Below, one piece after another: positions 5,076 through 10,271 of a stretch of 10,271 bases of DNA. Both the position numbers and the translations under genes were made by a program. The notes under the pieces were generated by a model, which saw only the letters and a list, made by a program, of their open reading frames with translations, was not told the origin of the DNA and ran no database searches. Position 1 is the first letter of the stretch. Each line of letters opens with the position of its first letter. This DNA comes from Nitrospirota bacterium. GTDB taxonomy: Bacteria > Nitrospirota > Thermodesulfovibrionia > Thermodesulfovibrionales > SM23-35. Where the stretch lies: NCBI GenBank assembly GCA_029883145.1, contig JAOUJR010000036.1, positions 1 to 10,271 on the forward strand, given 5' to 3'.

Positions 5076-5117
5076 AAATAGGCATATTGAATCGAGATAT
5101 TTATAAGATTGTGATAT

Positions 5118-5232
5118 ATAGGCAGGACATAGCATTTTCGCTCATTCTCGGTCCCGATATACATCGGGACCTCCGAGGTGAATTCTTTCTACTAAAGAAT
5201 TCAAATCCGCTCAAATACTACGCCCTGCCTAT
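5118..5232. repeat. Structured palindromic repeat, copy 1
   Basis: Intergenic element with a 24-pair outer stem (5118-5141 with 5209-5232) enclosing two hairpins. Hairpin A is 5150-5158 paired with 5163-5171 (9 bp, loop ATAC), extended by CTC/GAG (5147-5149 with 5175-5177) after a 3-base bulge. Hairpin B is 5180-5188 with 5194-5202 (9 bp, loop CTACT). The outer stem has three A-C oppositions (5127/5223, 5129/5221, 5133/5217) and one tandem mismatch (5138-5139 with 5211-5212). On the minus strand these become G-U pairs and a tandem G-A/A-G. A second copy lies at 6300-6426. A six-T run at 5236-5241 follows it on the + strand, so it could also end comEC transcription. Confidence 0.85.
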
Positions 5233-5322
5233 CTCTTTTTTAAAATAATAATAAAGTATTCTAAAGTATAAAATCCTTAAATTGTAGAATATTTTTTATA
5301 TGAGTTAAGGAGGGACAAAGGT

Positions 5323-5787
5323 ATGGAAGAGAAAGAGATTGAAGGTCTGGATGACTCTTTAAAGGGTTACAAAGAAAAAATACCTCTTGTAAGCAGAGCT
5401 TTTCTCACGTGGGAAAAAGATACTGTTTTTACAGGTCGGATGCCTGGTTGTTTAGTTGATTATGACCCCACGAGAAAAGAGGGATGTGTGCCGACCGATA
5501 CCCTTCTGGTAAGCATCGCAGGTTGTCTTGCAATAGATGTGGTTACATTTCTCAGGAAGATGAAAGGAGAGATTACCAGTTTTGAGATAGAAATTTCAGG
5601 ACAAAGAAATCCAGCACCACCTCAATATTTCAAATCGGTAGAAATGATAATCCATATAGCTGGTAAGGAAATCACCCCAAGGAAACTCGATAGAGCTATC
5701 TCACTTTCCCAGGAAAAATATTGCTCGGTGTCCCATACACTCCGAAAAGATATGCCGGTTAAAGTAAGTTATATCATTGAAGGATAA
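5323..5787 (+). CDS. OsmC-family protein
   Basis: A 154-residue cytoplasmic OsmC/Ohr-superfamily protein. Characterised members use two cysteines to reduce hydroperoxides or react with other electrophiles. The two expected cysteines are present: Cys68 in SIAGCLAIDVV at the start of the central helix, and Cys134 in EKYCSVSHTLR. Two further cysteines (43, 55) are less typical. The first 20 residues are a charged, probably flexible extension. The start is well supported by a strong Shine-Dalgarno (AAGGAGGG, 5307-5314) eight bases upstream. It resembles the YhfA-like branch more than classical Ohr, so the substrate is uncertain. Its place beside ArsR and selenoprotein candidates suggests thiol-redox or metalloid stress. 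Selenocysteine forms of OsmC are known; this one keeps Cys codons. Confidence 0.88.
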   Translation: MEEKEIEGLDDSLKGYKEKIPLVSRAFLTWEKDTVFTGRMPGCLVDYDPTRKEGCVPTDTLLVSIAGCLAIDVVTFLRKMKGEITSFEIEISGQRNPAPPQYFKSVEMIIHIAGKEITPRKLDRAISLSQEKYCSVSHTLRKDMPVKVSYIIEG

Positions 5788-5860: not shown

Positions 5861-5870
5861 TTTTATATAT
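5839..5870. promoter_or_regulatory. Palindromic operator overlapping the promoter
   Basis: A 32-bp inverted repeat centred between 5854 and 5855. Fifteen of the sixteen symmetric pairs would be needed for near perfection; I count fourteen matching pairs, failing only at 5845/5864 and 5846/5863. Its 12-bp core (5849-5860) is a perfect palindrome. It starts just after the -35 box, covers the -10 and reaches the transcription start, so a bound dimer would block RNA polymerase. ArsR/SmtB repressors bind AT-rich inverted repeats in such positions, so autoregulation by the next gene is the simple reading. The high A/T content makes some symmetry likely by chance. Confidence 0.6.
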
Positions 5871-5886
5871 GTTGAAGGATAACAGA

Positions 5887-6228
5887 ATGAATTCAATTGG
5901 GAGGAATGTAGAAATCCTTAGAGTCATAGCTCATCCTGTAAGGATAATGATACTCGAGGAACTTACAAAAGGGGTGAAGTGTGTAAGTGATTTCGAGGAC
6001 TTTTTAGAAATCAGTCAGCCCAATATATCACAGCATCTTGCCTTACTCAGAAATTGCCGTATTATTGATTACTTCATTGACGGAAGACTTAAGTGTTATT
6101 TTCTTGTTGACTCAATAATTCCTGATCTCCTTGAACTACTCAAAAAGGATTACCATGAATCTCTCCCTGGACCTGAATGTTGCCCTGTAACGAAGAAAGG
6201 TAAATATCCTGGGGAAAGGCGGAGGTAA
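5887..6228 (+). CDS. ArsR/SmtB-family metalloregulatory repressor
   Basis: A 113-residue winged-helix repressor that should dissociate from DNA when its cysteines bind a metal(loid). The ArsR start LRVIAHPVRIMILEEL is followed by the recognition helix region (EISQPNISQHLALLRN) and wing (YFIDGRLKCYFL). The classical ELCVCDL arsenite motif is reduced to KCVSDF, with one cysteine (Cys32 counted from 5887). A Cys-Cys pair (98-99) lies in the tail sequence PGPECCPVTKK, so the sensing site probably differs from plasmid R773 ArsR. An ATG at 5869 would give 119 residues but would be nearly leaderless; GAAGGAT at 5873-5879 is a ribosome site for the ATG at 5887, so I chose that. The same tail motif recurs in the small ORF at 8565. 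The effector (As, Sb, Hg, Se or other) cannot be read from sequence alone. Confidence 0.88.
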   Translation: MNSIGRNVEILRVIAHPVRIMILEELTKGVKCVSDFEDFLEISQPNISQHLALLRNCRIIDYFIDGRLKCYFLVDSIIPDLLELLKKDYHESLPGPECCPVTKKGKYPGERRR

Positions 6229-6299
6229 TAGTAGGGGTTAAAGAGATGCAAACCAGAATATATAGTTTAGCCCAGATTATTTATAAACTATGTTTATTA

Positions 6300-6426
6300 A
6301 GACAGGACATAGTATTTTCACTCATTCTCGGTCTTCGACCTCCGAGGTATTTTGCCTCTCTATTATTTATATGCACACTGTATGAATATCAGCAAAATAA
6401 ATCCGCTCAAATACTATATCCTGTCT
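6300..6426. repeat. Structured palindromic repeat, copy 2
   Basis: Second copy of the element at 5118-5232, in the 271-base gap between the arsR-like gene and the first selenoprotein gene. The outer stem pairs 6300-6321 with 6405-6426. The same tandem mismatch is kept (6318-6319 with 6407-6408), and there are two A-C oppositions (6308/6418, 6320/6406) that become G-U on the minus strand. Hairpin A is shorter (6330-6333 with 6337-6340, loop TTC) but keeps the CTC/GAG extension and 3-base bulge. Hairpin B is a perfect 8-bp stem (6348-6355 with 6392-6399) around a 36-base loop, with no sequence similarity to hairpin B of copy 1. Pair 6302/6424 is A-T where copy 1 has G-C (5122/5228), a compensatory change. 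I see no clear promoter or gene in the rest of the gap. Confidence 0.85.
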
Positions 6427-6499
6427 ATATTTGAGAAATTTATGAATAAAATGGGTTAGAGAGAATGATTGAAAGAAAAAATAAAATGGAGGTGTCAAT

Positions 6500-6811
6500 A
6501 TGTTAAAAGTCCGATTTTTTCTTAATGAGCCAAGAGGAAAACCCTGAAAGCATTTTGAAGAGATAATGCCCGGTCTGGGCAAAAAGTATGGCATCGAGAT
6601 AGAAGTTATATCAAAACCAAAAAATGAATATATTACAGATGAGTATTTTGCAACAGATCTGCCCCTTGCACCTGCTGTTATGGTAGCTGATGAAGTTGTT
6701 GTTGAAGGAAAGGATGTTACAGAAAAGGAGCTTGAGTCTGTTATCTGCAGGCATCTGGGAATTAAAGAGAGCAAAGGTTTTCTGGGTAGATTATTTAAAA
6801 GGAGTCAGTAA
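6500..6811 (+). CDS. Thioredoxin-fold selenoprotein (in-frame TGA at codon 16)
   Basis: A small cytoplasmic thioredoxin-like protein of 103 residues if TGA (6545-6547) is read as selenocysteine. The start ATG has a good ribosome site (GGAGGTG, 6488-6494). The first beta strand LKVRFFLNEPRGKP leads directly to the TGA, followed by KHFEEIMPGLGKKYG, which looks like the first active-site helix. TGA therefore sits at the redox-active cysteine position, with no second nearby cysteine (a monothiol, or monoselenol, site). The Ala-Pro-Ala around Pro58 fits the conserved cis-proline loop. Another cysteine lies near the C-terminus in VICRHLGI. A SECIS-like hairpin follows the TGA (6567-6581). A gene caller would start falsely at the ATG at 6566 and lose the active site. 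The stop lies 6 bases before the next gene, implying one operon. Confidence 0.8.
6567..6581 (+). promoter_or_regulatory. SECIS-like hairpin for the TGA at 6545
   Basis: TGCCC (6567-6571) pairs with GGGCA (6577-6581) around the loop GGTCT (6572-6576). The loop starts 24 bases after the TGA, inside the spacing accepted for bacterial SECIS elements, and begins with G as they require. From memory, GGUCU is also the apical loop of the E. coli fdhF SECIS bound by SelB. The hairpin lies within the coding sequence, as expected in bacteria. Confidence 0.7.
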
Positions 6812-6817
6812 AGCAGT

Positions 6818-8554
6818 ATGAAAAAGATAATTGTGATACAGTTATTGCTTTTGCTCCTATCAGGTTGTACTGTCTATGACTACTATAAAAGTCGATTCGG
6901 GACTCGCACTCAAGAAACTGTTGCAAATGAGGCAAAAAAAGGCGGATATAACCTTATAACACCTGAGGAGATAAAAAGGGAATATCTGAACAATCCAGAA
7001 GCGCTTTTTCTCGTAGACACAAGGCAAGAGTGGGAGTATGAAAGCCAACATATACAAGGGGCGGTAAACCTACCGGTGAAACCTTACTGGTGGTATCCAT
7101 ACTATCCCAAGAACCGAAAGGACTTGAGGAATACCCTTGGCCCGGACAAGAACAGGCAGGTGTTCTTCTACTGAGACGGCCTGGCTTGAGTACGAAGCCA
7201 CGACGCAGCCAGTTTGGCTGTAAGACTTGGATATAAGAATATATATCGGTTTGCCGAAGGAATACCGGAATGGAAAAAGATGGGATTGCCTGTCACAGAA
7301 AAAAACCTTTCCGACCTGTTATCTGCTCAACAAAAGGATACATGGCGTTTCGCTTTTGAAAGCGGGCTATTCTTGACATTGATTGGTGTCTTTTTTGGAG
7401 GTATTGCCTTGAATCTCACTCCTTGCGTTTATCCTTTAATCCCTGTTACAGCTTCTTATTTTGGCGGAAGGAGTGGTGACAAGCGCCAGGGTTATCTCCT
7501 GATTCATGGGGTCTTGTATATCCTCGGGATTTCTATTATGAACTCCACGCTCGGTGTAACCGCTGCATTGACAGGAAAACTGATGGGCTCTCTCCTTCAA
7601 CACCCTGCTGTTCTCATCTTTGTATCATCCGTGTTCCTTCTCATGGCTCTCAATTTCTTCGGCCTTTGGGAGTTGCGCATACCGGCTTTTCTGAGTCCCA
7701 TCATTTCAAAATCACATACCGGCTATGCTGGTTCGTTATTTATGGGGCTGACACTCGGTATAGTGGCTGCTCCCTGTATCGGACCATTTATTATAGGGCT
7801 TTTGACGATGGTTGCCCAAAAGGGTGATCCTTTATTCGGTTTTCTCATATTCTTTACTCTCAGTCTCGGCCTCGGTTTACCTTTATTTATTCTTTCCATA
7901 TTCGCAGGAAATCTGAGTAAGCTGCCTCGATCAGGAGAGTGGCTGTTGTGGATCAGGAAATTTTTTGGATGGATTATGCTGGCCATGGCAGTATATTTCA
8001 TAAAACCTGTCTTTCCATGGCGAGATCTGGGGACTTATATACTTGTAATAGTTATTTTTGCATCTGGAGTTTATCTGGGGTTCCTTAACAAAATCGGGCA
8101 GACTCTTCGGACCTTCGTTTTCATAAAAAGGATTACCGGTATTGTAGCCATTGCCCTTTCACTGGTTCTTGTCCTGTCATTGCTTCTTCAAGGACCCGGC
8201 GTTTCCTGGAAATCATATTCACAACTAAATTTAAAAGAGGCAGAGACTTCTGGGAAACCGACCATTATTGATTTTTATGCTGACTGGTGTACCCCTTGCC
8301 GGAACCTGGAGAGAAAGACATTCCATGACAGGAGGGTGGTAAAAGAGTCTGAAAAGTTTCTCATGATCAAAGTAGACTTAACGAAAAAAGGTGACCTCGA
8401 TCCAGTACAACTACTTGATAAGTATCACGTCAAAGGGGTACCTACAGTAATTTTCCTCGATTCAAGAGGGAATGAGATAAAAGAATTGAGGATATTGGAC
8501 TTTATGCCTGCAGAAGAATTTTTTCTCAGAATGCAAAGAGTCTTGAGAGAGTAA
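6818..8554 (+). CDS. Double-Sec rhodanese-DsbD-thioredoxin fusion selenoprotein
   Basis: One 578-codon frame interrupted only by TGA at 7172-7174 (codon 119) and 7187-7189 (codon 124). A signal peptide with lipobox LSGC (Cys17) is followed by a rhodanese domain containing LVDTRQEWEYESQHIQGAVNLP (about 65-86). The active loop reads FY-TGA-DGLA-TGA-VRSHDAA; TGA falls where rhodaneses of the YC-x4-C-RS type have their two cysteines. The domain then continues as LGYKNIYRFAEGIPEWKKMGLPV. Next comes a DsbD/CcdA membrane domain with its redox pair Cys203 (NLTPCVYP) and Cys320 (AAPCIGPF), and a C-terminal thioredoxin domain with WCTPC (Cys491, Cys494). It should carry electrons across the membrane from cytoplasmic thioredoxin to outward-facing domains, and the selenolates may be their target. 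The unbroken homology across both TGAs argues against a pseudogene. Automated calls would split it near 7174 and 7214. Confidence 0.82.
7182..7200 (+). promoter_or_regulatory. SECIS-like hairpin for the TGA at 7172
   Basis: TGGCTT (7182-7187) pairs with AAGCCA (7195-7200) around the 7-base loop GAGTACG (7188-7194). The loop starts with G, 13 bases after the first TGA ends, at the short end of the usual spacing. The second TGA (7187-7189) lies inside this hairpin, spanning the top of the 5' arm and the loop, so the two recoding signals are physically interlocked. Confidence 0.55.
7206..7220 (+). promoter_or_regulatory. SECIS-like hairpin for the TGA at 7187
   Basis: CAGCCA (7206-7211) pairs with TGGCTG (7215-7220) around the loop GTT (7212-7214), with a possible extra G-U pair below (7205/7221). 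The loop starts with G, 22 bases after the second TGA. TTG at 7214, which a gene caller may choose as a start for the downstream half, lies inside this hairpin and has no convincing ribosome site. Confidence 0.55.
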
Positions 8555-8564
8555 ATGAGGGTAT

Positions 8565-8678
8565 ATGAGGTCTTTAGGCAAAAGGGTTGAGTTACTAAAA
8601 AAAGACTACAATGAATCATTACCTGTACCTTCATGTTGCCCTGTTAAGAAAAAGAAAGAAGAAATCAGTTACATATGA
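8565..8678 (+). CDS. Small ORF matching the Cys-Cys tail of the ArsR protein
   Basis: A 37-residue ORF between the DsbD fusion and the TVP38 gene. Its residues 9-27 read VELLKKDYNESLPVPSCCP, closely matching the C-terminal tail of the ArsR-like protein at 5887-6228 (LELLKKDYHESLPGPECCP). It has no DNA-binding domain: an in-frame TGA stop at 8556 blocks extension, and upstream sequence belongs to the previous gene. GAGGG at 8557-8561 is close to the ATG (8565), and the stop overlaps the next ATG by four bases, so coupled translation is plausible. It may be the remnant of a second arsR-like gene, or a stand-alone metal-binding peptide that retains the Cys-Cys site. The low divergence at protein level favours a preserved or recent sequence, but 37 codons are too few to be sure. 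Confidence 0.5.
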   Translation: MRSLGKRVELLKKDYNESLPVPSCCPVKKKKEEISYI

Positions 8679-9373
8679 AGAAAAGTGTTATAAAAAAGAT
8701 TCTCCTCTTAGTGATAATAGTCGGCATCATCGCTGGGATAAGGGTCTCTGGTCTCGGAGATTACCTCACCTTTGAGAATTTGAAGGAGAACAGAGGGTAT
8801 TTACATGATATAGTTGATAAGAATTATTTGATTTCAGTTATTCTGTTTATCGTAATCTACATTGTCGTTGTTGGCCTGTCTATACCTGTTGCCTCAACTG
8901 TAACCCTGGGAGGAGGTTTTCTCTTCGGCACAATTCTGACTACTATATACGTTAATATTGGTGCCACAATTGGAGCTACCATTGCCTTTTTAGTTTCTCG
9001 ATACCTTTTAGGAAACTGGATTCAGGCCAAATATCATAATAAGCTCCAGAAGTTTAATCAGGAGATAGAAGTGAATGGATACCGCTATCTCCTTACCCTG
9101 AGGCTCATTGCCCTTTTTCCATTCTACCTAATCAACATTATGGCCGGTGTCACGAAAACCCCTATCAGGACATATATATGGACCACATCAGTGGGTATAA
9201 TCCCGGGTACCCTGGTTTATGCCTTTGCCGGAAGCAGGTTGAACCTTATCGAATCGCCTAAGGATATATTTTCTACCCAGATATTACTCGCATTTGCCCT
9301 GCTGGCACTTTTACCATTATTGCCCATAGTTATTAAAAAACTTAAACATATCAAGCATGCTGAAAGTAAATGA
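8675..9373 (+). CDS. TVP38/TMEM64-family (VTT domain) membrane protein
   Basis: A 232-residue integral membrane protein of the TVP38/TMEM64 (SNARE-associated, DedA-related) family, whose transported substrate is mostly unknown. An N-terminal span (about 7-25) and a second span (about 50-70) precede the signature block GGGFLFGTILTTIYVNIGAT, followed by FLVSRYLLGNWI. The second conserved block is RLIALFPFYLINIMAGVTKT with SVGIIPGTLVYAFAG. A last span (about 200-222) ends in a lysine/histidine-rich tail. The ATG overlaps the preceding small ORF by four bases; the upstream ribosome site is weak, which supports translational coupling. From memory, proteins of this family are often encoded beside ArsS-like radical SAM genes, as here, so it may move a substrate or product of that pathway; this is an inference. 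Confidence 0.88.
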   Translation: MKKSVIKKILLLVIIVGIIAGIRVSGLGDYLTFENLKENRGYLHDIVDKNYLISVILFIVIYIVVVGLSIPVASTVTLGGGFLFGTILTTIYVNIGATIGATIAFLVSRYLLGNWIQAKYHNKLQKFNQEIEVNGYRYLLTLRLIALFPFYLINIMAGVTKTPIRTYIWTTSVGIIPGTLVYAFAGSRLNLIESPKDIFSTQILLAFALLALLPLLPIVIKKLKHIKHAESK

Positions 9374-9410
9374 AGGAGATATTGAAAATAATACAGCTCA
9401 GGAGGGGGGA

Positions 9411-10271
9411 ATGGCAGTCTTGTGGCGGAATAAAAACATAAGGAAGACCAATATCGAGACAATCCAGATCAATATAGGAAACCGTTGTAACCAGGCCTGC
9501 ACCCACTGCCATATCGAGGCATCACCCAGGGGGAGAAGCAATATGGCCACAGCTACGGCTGAGAAGATTCTGGATAAGCTTCTGGAGCTTGATATTGAAA
9601 ATGTGGAGTTTACAGGAGGAGCTCCAGAACTTAATTTGAATCTCAAGATGTTTATCGAGAGAATAGGAAAGCATCATAAGAAGGTTGCAGTGAGAACGAA
9701 TTTAACTGTGCTTGATATGCCTGAGTATTCATTTTTCATAGATCTCTATAAACGCTACAGTGTGAAGATAATAGCATCATTGCCAAGTTGTTTTAAGGAT
9801 CTGACAGATGAACAGAGGGGCAGGGGGATATTCGATAAGTGTGTGAAGGTTCTGAAAAGACTGAATGAGACAGGCTATGGCAGTGAAGAGCTTCCAGTTG
9901 AGCTTGTGTACAATCCTGTGGGGGATTATCTTCCCCCTTCACAAATGAATCTCGAAAAAGATTATAAAAAACTCCTATCTGATATCCACGGTATTTCTTT
10001 CAATAAGCTGATTACAATCACAAACTCTCCCATAGGAGGATTCAGAAAGTATCTTATCCGGCAAGGGAAACTTGATGATTACATGAGGCTCCTTGTAAAC
10101 AACTTTAACTATGAGACTCTCGATAGTATCATGTGCAGGCGATTACTTTCGGTGGATTATCAGGGATATGTCTATGATTGTGATTTCAACCTTGCCCTGG
10201 GAATACGTGTTAAAGGGTATGAAGATAAAAAATTATGGGAGATACATTTTGAAGACTTTATCCCCGAAATA
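9411..10271 (+). CDS. arsS: ArsS-like radical SAM/Cys-rich protein, 3' end outside the window
   Basis: A radical SAM enzyme of the ArsS (rSAM/Cys-rich, TIGR04167-like) family. In cyanobacteria, ArsS with the methylase ArsM makes arsenosugar precursors by adding a 5'-deoxyadenosyl group to methylated arsenic. The 287 visible codons are open to the window edge. The iron-sulfur motif CNQACTHC (Cys26, Cys30, Cys33) is followed by the SAM-binding FTGGAPELN (about 65-73). The C-terminal part begins with MCRRLLSVDYQGYVYDCDFNLALG, typical of this family. The Cys-rich tail, where some members carry selenocysteine, lies beyond the edge. ATG 9411 has a strong AGGAGG (9400-9405). No ArsM is visible, so arsenic as substrate is inferred from family membership. 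Confidence 0.85.
   Translation, partial: MAVLWRNKNIRKTNIETIQINIGNRCNQACTHCHIEASPRGRSNMATATAEKILDKLLELDIENVEFTGGAPELNLNLKMFIERIGKHHKKVAVRTNLTVLDMPEYSFFIDLYKRYSVKIIASLPSCFKDLTDEQRGRGIFDKCVKVLKRLNETGYGSEELPVELVYNPVGDYLPPSQMNLEKDYKKLLSDIHGISFNKLITITNSPIGGFRKYLIRQGKLDDYMRLLVNNFNYETLDSIMCRRLLSVDYQGYVYDCDFNLALGIRVKGYEDKKLWEIHFEDFIPEI

Follow-up and report, generated by a model that had tools for sequence, protein, structure and literature searches.

A TsoB rhodanese-DsbD fusion with two predicted selenocysteines and a candidate shared SECIS hairpin at a Nitrospirota locus with arsS

Genes and features of the tsoB locus

The window, i.e. the whole stretch of 10,271 nt that was analysed (contig JAOUJR010000036.1 of assembly GCA_029883145.1), belongs to a Nitrospirota draft genome of 444 contigs that is 86.6% complete. 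Its genes include, in this order, those for OsmC, ArsR, TsoC, TsoB, a VTT-domain protein, and ArsS. The following features were assigned, with the selenocysteine (Sec) codons and the hairpins being predictions:

5323..5787, + strand: OsmC-family protein (PF02566)
5869..6228, + strand: ArsR/SmtB-family regulator with a CCPV tail (NF033788, 66.7 bits, cut-off 55)
6500..6811, + strand: tsoC, predicted NEPxGxxU selenoprotein, TGA at 6545-6547 (NF045708, 148.7 bits, cut-off 45)
6567..6581, + strand: candidate SECIS hairpin of tsoC, loop GGTCT 24 nt after the TGA (weak z-score, -0.70)
6818..8554, + strand: tsoB, rhodanese-DsbD-thioredoxin fusion with two predicted Sec codons (NF045694 score, translation)
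6965..7279, + strand: rhodanese domain, residues 50-154 (PF00581, 56.5 bits)
7172..7174, + strand: predicted Sec codon 1 (U119), at the catalytic Cys position of rhodaneses (translation, alignment to solved rhodaneses)
7187..7189, + strand: predicted Sec codon 2 (U124), second active-loop residue (translation; Cys in the relatives P0095, P0096, and P0112)
7205..7221, + strand: hairpin of 6 bp, candidate SECIS of both Sec codons (loop AGTTT, 7211-7215)
7376..8011, + strand: DsbD_TM domain, residues 187-398, with C203 and C320 (PF02683)
8240..8521, + strand: thioredoxin-like domain (Thioredoxin_2), residues 475-568, WCTPC at C491/C494 (PF13098)
8675..9373, + strand: VTT-domain membrane protein (PF09335)
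9357..10271, + strand: arsS (arsenosugar radical SAM protein), truncated at the contig end (TIGR04167, 327 bits, cut-off 300)

Translation with TGA read as U confirmed the tsoB frame and the codon numbers of the first-pass annotation: 578 codons on the + strand (6818-8554), closed by TAA at 8552-8554 and interrupted solely by two TGA codons, 119 and 124. Four of the nine window genes whose ends are present terminate normally at TGA, and therefore the code is standard; an altered genetic code, already thought unlikely in that annotation, was ruled out.

The protein reaches 819.9 bits with the NCBIfam model NF045694 (“rhodanese/DsbD fusion-like selenoprotein TsoB”, curated cut-off 805), and the same model gave 807.7 bits for this gene in the genome search. 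Judged by its sequence, the window gene very probably encodes a double-Sec selenoprotein of this already named family. The novelty that the first-pass annotation had implied for a double-Sec fusion is lost, because TsoB is already listed as UxxxxU with two Sec in a table of a 2026 review (PMC13188914). The review also refers to the Tso operon, for which work by Haft and coworkers is cited (Haft and Tolstoy 2025), and to further Sec-containing rhodanese forms. In a literature search by the name TsoB, this review was the sole relevant paper found.

For comparison, ten distinct TsoB genes were examined, i.e. the window gene, L108, L109, and L110 (three genomes of the same family), L111 (same order, ending at a contig edge 3′ of both TGA codons), and the far loci L009-L013 (MAGs titled Deltaproteobacteria, Desulfobacteraceae or Desulfobacterales). 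The search used genetic code 10, which detects TGA and Cys codons alike, and matches over residues 100-140 only; relative loci were the best 80 of 494. The output comprised these ten genes (six rows being second copies) and two further rhodanese segments of L012, both with Cys codons.

An ArsR gene is also found upstream of tsoB at L108-L111. The VTT gene, the product of which we take to be TVP38/TMEM64-like by name, also adjoins tsoB at L108, L109, L110, and L011; it lies downstream at three of the four loci L108-L111, the contig ending first at the fourth. No ArsS match was found at L108-L111 or L009-L013. The window regulator reaches just 28.9 bits with the TsoR model NF045707 (cut-off 115). 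Between tsoB and the VTT gene, a 37-residue ORF (8565-8678) repeats the C-terminal tail of the ArsR protein (5869-6228), including the CCPV motif (67 nt, 78% identity); from its sequence, it may be what is left of a second arsR. Copies of a dispersed palindrome of about 135 bp are present at 5098-5240 and 6278-6333, with inverted arms at 5118-5232; at E <= 1e-5, the repeat has 23 matches in the genome, counting the query. Another inverted repeat, of larger size, lies at 6268-6458.

TsoC is encoded immediately upstream of tsoB in the window and downstream of it at four of the five far loci (L009, L010, L011, and L013; not L012). It is more widespread than TsoB, because its model has matches in 50 of the 394 related genomes, in 23 of them above the cut-off and in most, not all, of these with TGA. 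A small TGA gene with the motif NRPAGKRU (GxxU) lies upstream of tsoB at L108 (1137-1385) and L110 (7732-7980, - strand). The two reach 24.7 and 29.4 bits with the TsoC model, below its cut-off of 45, and from their sequences are perhaps diverged TsoC genes.

Close to the contig end, the ArsS match breaks off at model position 275; positions 282-303 of the model are matched at the start of contig C351 of the same genome, in an open frame that leads on to an ArsM-like domain, for which the score of 160.2 bits does not reach the cut-off (263). Next on C351 are two arsenosugar glycosyltransferase genes (TIGR04282 and TIGR04283, both above cut-off), followed by selD, the gene for a protein that looks TauE-like by eye and has no NCBIfam match, and another OsmC gene. 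The ends of the two contigs have only AAATA in common. We infer that the window contig probably continues into the arsenosugar genes and selD on C351. At locus L127 (3-1127), the C-terminus of ArsS is apparently in frame with an ArsM-like methyltransferase domain. The two OsmC genes (L127 4496-4915 and window 5323-5787) share 82% protein identity and 85% DNA identity over 369 bases; if the two contigs adjoin, these genes would lie on either side of the combined Tso/arsenosugar region.

Conservation of the two TGA codons

TGA is present at both positions in all ten distinct TsoB genes, and chance or sequencing error is therefore an unlikely source of the pair. Of the three outcomes that the first-pass annotation had named as refuting (a genome lacking Sec machinery, homologues lacking Cys, and sequencing errors), none came about; as to the last, the same TGAs were found in separate assemblies. 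Both lie inside the Pfam Rhodanese match (residues 50-154), in agreement with the earlier statement that homology runs unbroken across them. For codons 40-118, pN/pS was 0.18-0.40 (six pairs among four genes), indicating purifying selection on the half of tsoB that is 5′ of the TGA codons.

Of 6836 protein relatives, 120 were listed and placed according to their BLAST offset. In this set, 116 begin 3′ of the second TGA (47 at codon 125, 52 at codons 126-150, and 17 later), and the rhodanese half is present in four. Database proteins with about 70% identity bear names such as Thermodesulfovibrionales and Nitrospira, in keeping with Nitrospirota. Three of the four full-length relatives without TGA (P0095, P0096, and P0112) have Cys at both Sec positions, and in alignments to solved rhodaneses U119 falls on the catalytic Cys; the first-pass annotation had assigned the TGAs to the active-loop Cys sites of C-x4-C rhodaneses. 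The fourth, P0097, has Gly and Arg at the two positions, which counts against the Sec reading. GGA and CGA, for Gly and Arg, would each differ from TGA by one base.

In the 394 related genomes, the TsoB model gave matches at E <= 1e-40 in 13 genomes. Four of them, the genome of the window included, exceed the cut-off and have two TGA codons each, and a fifth (G082) has a gene with two TGA codons that is split over two contigs. The remaining eight match the model only from about position 150 onward, i.e. in the DsbD part. No TsoB beyond those from the 394 genomes was found in 395 genomes of the phylum.

The set by which selenoprotein synthesis is recognized in bacteria, SelA, SelB, SelD, and tRNA-Sec, is complete in the genome of the window, as the earlier reading of the TGA codons presupposed. 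The scores, each above cut-off, are 72.7 bits for tRNA-Sec, 633.6 for selA, 370.7 for selB, and 342.8 for selD. tRNA-Sec, selA, and selB are together on contig C212, and selD itself has a TGA, in SSCAG-U-AAKF.

With the standard code, the tsoB region consists of the ORFs 6818-7174 and 7214-8554, and might be read as two genes. One would encode a secreted piece of rhodanese that is short because it stops at the first TGA, and the other, with its start at TTG 7214 or nearby, a DsbD. This is how automatic annotation would split it, and the 116 of 120 listed relatives that correspond to the second part only are compatible with it. However, the TGA pair is kept in ten of ten genes, the frame 5′ of it shows the signature of purifying selection, the Pfam Rhodanese match covers both codons, and full-length Cys/Cys proteins exist, so that two separate genes are very improbable. 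In a draft genome of 444 contigs and 86.6% completeness, one could also suspect gene decay or misassembly, with two stops that arose by chance, and P0097 has neither Sec nor Cys at the two positions. Yet both codons recur in ten genes from separate assemblies, pN/pS is low, and the 578 codons contain no other stop; we regard the probability of this explanation as negligible. At the level of sequence, the conserved frame, the conserved TGA pair, and the Sec machinery are established, and we have high confidence in the reading of U119 and U124 as two Sec residues of a single protein.

A candidate SECIS hairpin for both UGA codons

The predicted hairpin at 7205-7221 lies 36 nt after the first and 21 nt after the second TGA and has a folding energy of -9.1 kcal/mol. 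An alternative form has 7 bp, the loop GTT, and spacings of 37 and 22 nt. The review gives the rules for bacterial SECIS as a stem of 4-16 bp, a loop of 3-9 nt, a spacing of 16-37 nt, an MFE <= -7.5, and a G in the first two loop positions (PMC13188914); the window hairpin falls within them for both TGA codons. The U-x4-U spacing places one loop at 36 and 21 nt, and hence both distances are within 16-37 nt.

For all genes, stems were listed if they had 4 bp or more and included two or more GC pairs, the latter a filter added in this analysis. Exactly one hairpin is common to the same place in all ten TsoB genes, with a spacing that fits both TGAs. When synonymous codons were permuted column by column, alike in all rows, such a hairpin arose in 17 of 5000 trials. 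This codon-level null was added after dinucleotide shuffling had given weak z-scores for the window hairpin regions (-0.97, -1.12, and -0.76), which count against the hairpin. All 60 cells of the shared hairpin (ten genes, six pairs) are paired, and its covariation score was reached in none of 500 shuffles. Two pairs have changed on both sides, a number that was reached in 41 of 500 shuffles and reflects few evolutionary events. Four of the six pairs are invariant and carry little information, because conserved Ala and Val codons fix these positions. The other two link third codon positions, with A-U/G-C in six/four genes and C-G/U-A in nine/one.

The folding support is good in the window's group and uneven beyond it. 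For the sequence after the first TGA, the pair probabilities of the shared hairpin are at least 0.64 in six of the ten genes (window, L108-L111, and L013) and at most 0.17 in L009, L010, L011, and L012. After the second TGA, they are at least 0.83 in eight of ten, about 0.47 in L011, and 0.08 in L012. Over codons 120-135, the near group shows high synonymous conservation, equalled or exceeded in 9 of 540 windows, whereas the values within the far group (equalled or exceeded in 100 of 540) and between the groups (287 of 539) are unremarkable. Rfam returned no SECIS for the window, its two matches both being far below the gathering scores. For the candidate SECIS of tsoC, an equivalent stem is present in the centroid fold of the L009 tsoC gene and absent from its minimum-energy fold.

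These results support the view that a hairpin directly 3′ of the TGA codons acts as a SECIS, and that in the window's group a single hairpin could serve both UGAs. We tentatively propose that one SECIS hairpin decodes two UGAs 15 nt apart, with one SelB-binding site and two successive Sec insertions, a reading that falls somewhat short of being probable. Alternatively, each UGA may have its own SECIS, 7205-7221 acting for the second UGA only and a different, partly overlapping hairpin for the first, to which we assign a substantial, slightly less than even chance. L009-L013 have a hairpin 18 nt after the first TGA with a G in the first two loop positions; in L010, L011, and L012 it is part of the minimum-energy fold, and the shared hairpin is improbable there. 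Folding of the alignment gives a three-pair helix (columns 19-21/28-30), one pair of which is broken in two of the ten genes. In contrast, the shared stem alone satisfies the rules for either TGA in the window and in L108, the extra stems of L111 are further downstream and fit the second TGA alone, L109 and L110 add just a 4-bp stem at 19 nt, and the upstream hairpin of the window leaves 13 nt before its loop, short of 16-37. The idea of a shared SECIS thus fits best in the window's own group. The shared hairpin is possibly a new finding: among the titles and abstract beginnings listed, none described a bacterial SECIS that acts on two UGAs, which is weak evidence.

Proposed function and comparison with known systems

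All of the 22 aligned sequences have C203, C320, C491, and C494. By their roles, we take C203/C320 and C491/C494 to be the Cys pairs of the membrane domain and the thioredoxin domain of DsbD, respectively. A structure model of TsoB had moderate confidence (pLDDT 73.5, pTM 0.48), too weak for judging the docking of rhodanese and thioredoxin domains. In a comparison of the model with the PDB, DsbD gamma (1uc7) ranked first and the first rhodanese, 6mxv, ranked 11th. The TsoB loop is two residues longer than those of rhodanese chains in the four alignments shown of 15 matches, and therefore sulfurtransferase activity is not assured.

We propose that C203/C320 in the membrane domain would be reduced by cytoplasmic thioredoxin and would pass electrons to C491/C494, which in turn would reduce a diselenide or selenenyl bond at U119-U124 on the periplasmic rhodanese. 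The rhodanese would thus replace the N-terminal domain of classical DsbD as the electron outlet. U119 might attack a sulfane-sulfur, selenium or arsenic-thiol substrate, with U124 as the resolving residue, and the likely function of TsoB would be to process such species reductively in the periplasm, TsoC being its partner. An electron path from DsbD via the thioredoxin domain to U119/U124 is somewhat more probable than its absence, and the substrate class (sulfane sulfur, selenium or thioarsenic), suggested by the genomic context only, is a doubtful assignment. The putative function given in the first-pass annotation is plausible. A lipid anchor, which that annotation had also ascribed to the rhodanese, has some basis in the window, where a Cys lies in what we take to be a lipobox-like motif (LLSGC), and perhaps in L109 (LLMSC), but L108, L110, L010, L011, and L013 have none (the L009 and L012 rows begin at residue 31, and L111 is outside the alignment); as a general TsoB feature, the anchor is not supported by these sequences.

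TsoB has two predicted Sec residues in one active loop, covalently joined to a probable reductant, and therefore diselenide-based periplasmic chemistry could be tested in a single polypeptide. If one SECIS serves both UGAs, the gene offers a compact model for the number of Sec residues that a single SECIS can specify in bacteria, and its product would have an active site that is able to form a diselenide and is connected to the electron relay of DsbD. The nearby TsoC and ArsS, and an ArsM-like enzyme and SelD that are probably nearby too, suggest arsenic or sulfur chemistry as a lead to the substrate. At the tsoB locus, the shared hairpin and the arsenosugar context deserve follow-up.

Classical DsbD has another N-terminal domain at the place where TsoB has the rhodanese. 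In comparison with it (PRK00293, NF001419), the DsbD_TM domain and the C-terminal thioredoxin domain are shared, with conserved Cys pairs in both, whereas the rhodanese of TsoB occupies the place of the N-terminal domain. The score of 257.8 bits for the DsbD subfamily model NF001419 is below its cut-off of 330. The single-domain rhodaneses PspE and YgaP are alike in fold and in the position of the catalytic residue. Unlike in a standard rhodanese, with its usual loop length and catalytic Cys, a predicted Sec is at the catalytic position and the alignment has a two-residue gap; in comparison with the solved rhodaneses shown, the active loop of TsoB is longer and has a second predicted Sec. UxxU proteins are known from Prx-like families (PMC2398784, PMC9312934). 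Of the Tso operon with three selenoproteins (tsoA, tsoB, and tsoC), tsoB and tsoC adjoin in the window; tsoA, like tsoY, was not found in the draft genome by searches that had no positive control. In comparison with the TsoB family itself (NF045694), the domains and the U-x4-U motif are the same, the score is above the curated cut-off, and the protein has no visible difference; the window copy lies beside arsS and probably an arsenosugar cluster.
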